Of a stretch of DNA of 37,607 bases, positions 29,769 through 30,451 are shown piece by piece. Position numbers and translations under genes: made by a program. The stretch lies in assembly GCA_902601235.1 (NCBI GenBank), contig CACKMG010000007.1, positions 1-37,607 on the forward strand, written 5' to 3'. Positions within the stretch are counted from its first letter, which is position 1, and each line of letters begins with the position of its first letter. This DNA is from an uncultured Pelagibacteraceae bacterium. GTDB lineage: Bacteria; Pseudomonadota; Alphaproteobacteria; Pelagibacterales; Pelagibacteraceae. The notes beneath the pieces were generated by a model that saw only the letters and a program-made list of their open reading frames with translations, did no database searches and was not told the origin of the DNA.

Positions 29769-29784
29769 TTTTTTTTAAAAATAA

Positions 29785-29813
29785 ATTAGACTCCAAAAAG
29801 ATTCATGGGTCAA
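29785..29813 (-). promoter_or_regulatory. Putative ccrM promoter carrying two GANTC sites
   Basis: Reverse strand TTGACC (29808-29813), 17-nt spacer, TCTAAT (29785-29790). GANTC at 29800-29804 (spacer) and 29789-29793 (overlapping -10). Confidence 0.65.
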
Positions 29814-29875
29814 CCTACGATTGAATTATTTAGATTTTATTTGTGTAGGTTTTTTTTAAAGCAACTAGATATTGT

Positions 29876-29893: not shown

Positions 29894-30451
29894 TTAATAT
29901 TTATTTATTGGAGAAAAAGTTTTTCTGTGATGAACCGTAACTCCTAATTTTTTAATAGCTTTTAAATGCTGTTTAGTACCATAACCGTAGTTTATATCCC
30001 AGAAATATCCCTTATATTTTTTCCCTAAATTTGAAATTGAATTATCACGAGTAACTTTAGCTATAATTGATGCGGCCGAAATTGATGGTATTATTTGATC
30101 CCCTTTTATTACTGAATTTAGTTTGTAGTTTTTAATTTTTGGCAATTTATTTCCATCTACTAAAACTATTGTAGGTTTTTTTTTTAACTTAACGACAGCT
30201 CTTTTCATTGCCAGCAGACTTGCGTTTAAAATATTATTTTTTTCAATTTCTTTTACTGATGCCTTGCCAATAGACCATATTGAATTTTTTTTAATATATT
30301 TTGATAATTTTTCCCTCTTTCTCTTTGTTAATTTTTTTGAGTCTTTAAGTATTTTTTTATCTATAGAACTATTTAATATTACTGCAGCGGCATAAACAGG
30401 CCCAATTAAACTGCCTCTTCCAACCTCGTCTACGCCAGCAATTATTTTCAT
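29894..30451 (-). CDS. rnhB: Ribonuclease HII
   Basis: IAGVDEVGRGSLIGPVYAAAVIL, KDSKKLTKRKRE, SAASIIAKVTRD. Confidence 0.97.
   Translation of the reverse strand: MKIIAGVDEVGRGSLIGPVYAAAVILNSSIDKKILKDSKKLTKRKREKLSKYIKKNSIWSIGKASVKEIEKNNILNASLLAMKRAVVKLKKKPTIVLVDGNKLPKIKNYKLNSVIKGDQIIPSISAASIIAKVTRDNSISNLGKKYKGYFWDINYGYGTKQHLKAIKKLGVTVHHRKTFSPINKY

Follow-up and report, generated by a model that had tools for sequence, protein, structure and literature searches.

The window, meaning the whole stretch of 37,607 nucleotides that we analysed, comes from an uncultured Pelagibacteraceae bacterium and carries ccrM, which encodes an orphan GANTC adenine methyltransferase, on its minus strand downstream of rnhB (Table 1). 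The encoded protein contains the Pfam domains N6_N4_Mtase (234.8 bits) and RAMA (57.7 bits) and aligns with the solved Caulobacter CcrM, 6pbd, at E=3.6e-141. The NCBIfam CcrM model was its best match at 573.8 bits, a score under the model's Caulobacter cut-off of 830. The gene 3' of the promoter described here thus supplies the genome with a CcrM-family GANTC methyltransferase. With the GC-skew minimum and maximum taken as ori and ter, respectively, ccrM lies at 0.36-0.37 of the ori-to-ter distance in two complete relatives, G003 and G015. No phage-borne relatives were found in the viral contigs searched with this ccrM as the query.

Table 1. Features of the ccrM promoter region and of related loci. 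Positions refer to the window unless a genome and contig are named.
Feature	Position	Strand	Remarks
ccrM, orphan GANTC adenine methyltransferase, 359 aa	28689-29768	-	Pfam, 6pbd match
Predicted transcription start zone	29774-29778	-	Inferred from -10 position
-10 element TCTAAT	29790-29785	-	Final T invariant (n=151)
GANTC site 2, GAGTC, about -15 to -11	29789-29793	-	Last two bases shared with the -10
Spacer, 17 nt	29807-29791	-	Read from the sequence
GANTC site 1, GAATC, in the spacer, about -26 to -22	29800-29804	-
-35 element TTGACC	29813-29808	-	TTGAC in 151/151 anchored upstream regions (TTGAC is the anchor)
TTCAATC block 5' of the -35	29819-29825	-	In 98/151 regions
rnhB	29894-30451		ccrM lies downstream of it, on the minus strand
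OmpR-family regulator and gcrA, first example	G009 C1 960034-961222
OmpR-family regulator and gcrA, second example	G034 C13 7676-9183
GANTC triple upstream of the umuD-like gene	G003 C1 382088-382115 (L154:2088-2115)

A first-pass annotation had described a TTGACC-17-TCTAAT promoter for ccrM on the minus strand, one GANTC site (GAATC) lying in its spacer and the other (GAGTC) overlapping the -10. All of these elements are present in the sequence; the overlap amounts to two bases. The interval between the -10 and the ATG (29768-29766, minus strand) is 16 nt, not the 17 nt given there. From the position of the -10, the ccrM leader is predicted to be about 6-10 nt long, and site 1 would start at about -26, provided that TCTAAT is the -10. 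Because GAGTC overlaps the -10, a C is fixed at -11. In the window, this sigma70-like promoter thus contains both GANTC sites within its -35 to -10 interval.

GANTC is a depleted motif in these genomes. The window holds 54 copies against 99.5 expected, a count below that of all 100 of 100 dinucleotide shuffles, and G003 has 1.48 per kb against 2.86 expected. Among 387 upstream regions compared, a GANTC pair within 16 bp occurred in 4 in G003 and 2 in G015, while a first-order simulation of the G003 upstream regions gave 0.66 with such a pair; a close upstream cluster was present in both genomes before ccrM and umuD only. A GANTC pair in a single promoter is therefore uncommon and not decisive alone, in line with the first-pass view that two sites within 16 bp are suggestive and not proof. 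The pair gains its significance from conservation across the order, which rules out chance alone as its source.

We compiled 151 distinct ccrM upstream regions, comprising 80 public Pelagibacteraceae loci, the window, and genomes from two families, and aligned them on TTGAC, counting offsets from its first T. This alignment, which the first-pass annotation had proposed as a check, showed the GANTC pair kept at matching places in 122 of the 151 regions and at least one site in 143; one site is kept in 21 and none in 8. The pairs fall at offsets (9,20) (n=78), (8,19) (n=23), (8,20) (n=14), (9,25) (n=5), and (9,19) (n=2). Counted separately, site 1 is a GANTC in 135/151 regions (offset 8, 9, or 10 from the -35) and site 2 in 130/151 (offset 19, 20, or 25). 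All four bases are found at the N position of site 1 across the order. Since both sites are kept across most of the order, CcrM very probably affects its own production through these promoter sites.

The exceptions are concentrated in particular lineages. GANTC is missing from between the hexamers in genus g2 and in most of g4, two g4 genomes have site 2 only, and g3 has mainly kept site 1 and lost site 2, while all three genera retain the TTGAC -35. Loss of the sites with retention of the hexamers, which the first-pass annotation had named as grounds for rejecting methylation control, thus holds only in a minority of lineages (g2, most of g4, and g3 for site 2). Genomes of these genera still carry ccrM and gcrA, so the system can exist without this promoter layout.

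The alignment also showed features of the promoter beyond the two sites. The sequence TTCAATC-N4-GTTGAC, found in 98/151 ccrM upstream regions, forms a conserved imperfect inverted repeat that extends into the -35 and is possibly a candidate operator for some regulator. An extra GANTC lies within 40 nt 5' of the -35 in 80/151 regions, usually at a fixed distance from it of either 24 or 14 nt (e.g., L002 and L130); the window has AAATC at the extra upstream position. Within the spacer, a T at about -17, 5 nt 5' of the -10 hexamer (29795 in the window, minus strand), is invariant in 151/151 regions, and its 3' neighbor is among the more variable positions.

The first-pass annotation had also noted a possible CtrA box overlapping the -10. 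The string CTAA-N7-TTAA is indeed present, and it occurs in 5/151 ccrM upstream regions, so it is not conserved. A search of 58 genomes with a Caulobacter CtrA sequence found no ortholog; the best match, at 36% identity, reads as other response regulators, and Pelagibacter has been reported to lack ctrA (PMC2877005, PMC7987155). With no ortholog found in these 58 genomes and no conserved box, we rejected CtrA control of ccrM. The wider proposal of a methylation-controlled ccrM loses its CtrA part and keeps the rest, as the hexamers and both sites are real and deeply conserved; from these we infer, with good reason, methylation-sensitive control of ccrM.

The candidate reader of such methylation is GcrA, a sigma70 cofactor that prefers methylated DNA and gives a footprint from -35 to -10 on the methylated Caulobacter ctrA P1 promoter (PMC3667746). 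GcrA (PF07750) is encoded in 138/148 genomes of the order, including all nine genera searched, and a SAR11 GcrA aligns with both the DNA-binding and the sigma-interacting domains of the solved Caulobacter protein. A search of the assembly that contains the window found no GcrA; this may reflect its completeness of 62.5%, as GcrA is present in the order. GcrA and CcrM have been reported to share the same conservation pattern (PMC3973325). In several SAR11 genomes, a gene for an OmpR-family response regulator adjoins gcrA (two examples in Table 1).

We favor, with modest confidence, a model in which the SAR11 ccrM promoter is a sigma70 promoter controlled through CcrM methylation of the two GANTC sites and read by GcrA. 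CcrM would methylate both sites in its own promoter, and replication would leave them hemimethylated. The most likely reader of this state would be GcrA bound to sigma70 RNA polymerase, as at Caulobacter ctrA P1. It would respond to the change in methylation, and ccrM transcription would then follow replication fork passage and CcrM activity without CtrA. The two sites are presumed to be methylated in the window organism; in cultured and environmental Pelagibacter, GANTC is methylated throughout the genome (PMC9516812, PMC12570018).

GcrA would be expected to bind at the ccrM promoter and to activate it. We favor activation for two reasons: the positions of the sites match those in GcrA-type promoters of Caulobacter, and the site 2 overlap forces a poor -10, with C at -11, that probably needs help with opening. 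Caulobacter promoters that fire at 40-60 min are marked by a GANTC between the -10 and -35, located at -28/-29 in ctrA P1 and at -24 in podJ P2 (PMC4287350). Under positive control by methylation alone, a lost mark would be hard to regain, so another input would be needed.

Several observations count against the favored model. First, neither window site matches YGAKTCK in either orientation, the minus strand reading TGAATCT and GGAGTCT; this motif is preferred by Caulobacter GcrA, while B. subvibrioides GcrA shows little preference (PMC7987155). Second, the N bases of the sites barely change in g1-type sequences. Third, g2 and most of g4 are without sites and nevertheless retain ccrM and gcrA. 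Fourth, the incomplete assembly of the window organism yielded no GcrA.

The main rival to GcrA activation is negative feedback in which methylation acts on RNA polymerase directly: full methylation would weaken the promoter and hemimethylation would re-open it, without GcrA. The methylated adenines of site 2 would lie at about -14 and opposite -12, in the region of sigma70 contact and opening, and such feedback is a stable arrangement for an enzyme whose level has to be kept in check. We nevertheless consider this unlikely: the order has conserved GcrA, which is known to read GANTC at this position in Caulobacter, and effects at the -10 alone leave the conserved spacer site 1 unexplained.

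Alternatively, some other constraint on the promoter or on an operator, such as binding of a regulator of ccrM, could have preserved the GANTC letters as a by-product, with methylation playing no regulatory role. Genus g1 strongly conserves the entire block from TTCAATC through the -10, and among 86 g1-type sequences the N bases of the two sites show 1 and 0 changes; this near fixity means that something beyond methylatability may be under selection. Some lineages without the sites also retain the hexamers. Against this, site letters and their surroundings behave differently. By approximate parsimony counts in the same 86 sequences, the fixed letters of both sites average 1.0 change per column, and the remainder of the spacer averages 6.9. 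Bases flanking the sites vary freely: each of the three positions directly 5' of site 1 changed 14-15 times, and the one directly 5' of site 2 changed 16 times. GANTC also recurs after register shifts in other clades, with other N bases and other flanks: on the CcrM tree, site 1 shows 16 changes of position or presence against 9 of presence alone, because GANTC is kept or re-made after shifts of 1-2 nt. The N of site 1 varies in the (8,20) and f2 groups, with 3 and 2 changes, respectively, by the same approximate counts, clade f2 not being monophyletic in the CcrM tree. GANTC is otherwise depleted. We regard the by-product explanation as quite improbable.

Two further readings fared worse. Some restriction-modification methyltransferases repress their own promoters, and the two CcrM sites overlap the RNA polymerase footprint, so CcrM protein might bind both sites and repress its own promoter. 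This is very improbable, since CcrM has no DNA-binding domain besides the methyltransferase and RAMA domains and has been reported to dissociate from DNA once it has methylated a site (PMC10073500). Translation from the -35 TTG, with GAATC and GAGTC as codons, is a mundane cause of conservation to which we give almost no credence: an open, in-frame TTG is present in 33/151 loci, G003 and G015 included, and the reading is refuted by the 118/151 that are out of frame or stopped, the window itself having a TAA before the ATG.

The layout that we favor as GcrA-read resembles Caulobacter ctrA P1 and podJ P2 in having a CcrM site between the -35 and -10 of a sigma70 promoter. It differs from them in its pair of sites, which are spaced by about one helical turn and of which the second overlaps the -10, and in that the target is ccrM itself, no CtrA was found, and GcrA dependence is presumed. 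The ccrM promoter fits the class of promoters with a CcrM site inside a sigma70 core promoter; membership among GcrA-dependent promoters is putative. The Caulobacter ccrM promoter likewise has two GANTC sites nearby (PMC10073500) and is most probably methylation-controlled (PMC3973325). Caulobacter ccrM is activated by CtrA, whereas no CtrA was found in SAR11; in contrast to Caulobacter ccrM, the short predicted leader of about 10 nt places the SAR11 sites within the core promoter.

Control of ccrM by GcrA was anticipated in an earlier comparison of 13 species, in which Ca. P. ubique was the one SAR11 genome and site position was not used (PMC7987155). From extended GANTC motifs near the gene, that study placed ccrM among the likely core GcrA targets in Alphaproteobacteria, and it inferred that this control was lost in Caulobacterales, where CtrA activates ccrM. 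By that inference, the first-pass suggestion that Caulobacter feedback had been kept in SAR11 with its sites moved probably has the history the wrong way round. Thus, ccrM as a predicted core GcrA target is already known (PMC7987155), while the exact promoter layout, the depth of conservation, the repositioning, the -10 overlap, and the lineage losses are new. Relative to the published regulon, position, pairing, -10 overlap, and gains and losses in SAR11 are now resolved over 151 sequences, which sharpens a prediction based on a motif close to ccrM into a defined promoter layout. Sites that are kept, and even re-created after small shifts, point to a specific control point for which GcrA is one candidate reader.

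SAR11 bacteria are among Earth's most abundant cells, and the finding bears on cell-cycle timing without CtrA. More tentatively, SAR11 may time its cell cycle without CtrA, by a loop between CcrM and GcrA directly at the ccrM promoter, where hemimethylation of the two core-promoter sites upon replication would set the moment of CcrM synthesis; we hold this to be possible and, on balance, doubtful. Such a timer would differ from that of Caulobacter, which uses a CtrA relay.

Outside ccrM, upstream GANTC sites are conserved more often than comparable motifs. With tRNAs left out, since T-loops inflate the number of conserved upstream GANTC, 21/53 sites were conserved between G003 and G015, compared with 65/311 for seven composition-matched control motifs (Fisher p=0.0036). 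The umuD-like gene has three GANTC sites 11-12 bp apart upstream (Table 1), with a GAAC-N7-GAAC (LexA-type) box closer to the start than the triple. The triple is kept in G015 and is the sole conserved GANTC cluster apart from that of ccrM. SOS promoters may show GANTC through LexA box overlap (PMC7987155). A single conserved GANTC precedes genes in G003 and G015 that resemble recA, clpX, clpP, guaB, thyX, and ubiA, labels that come from reading protein starts only, and this group is a candidate SAR11 GANTC promoter set.
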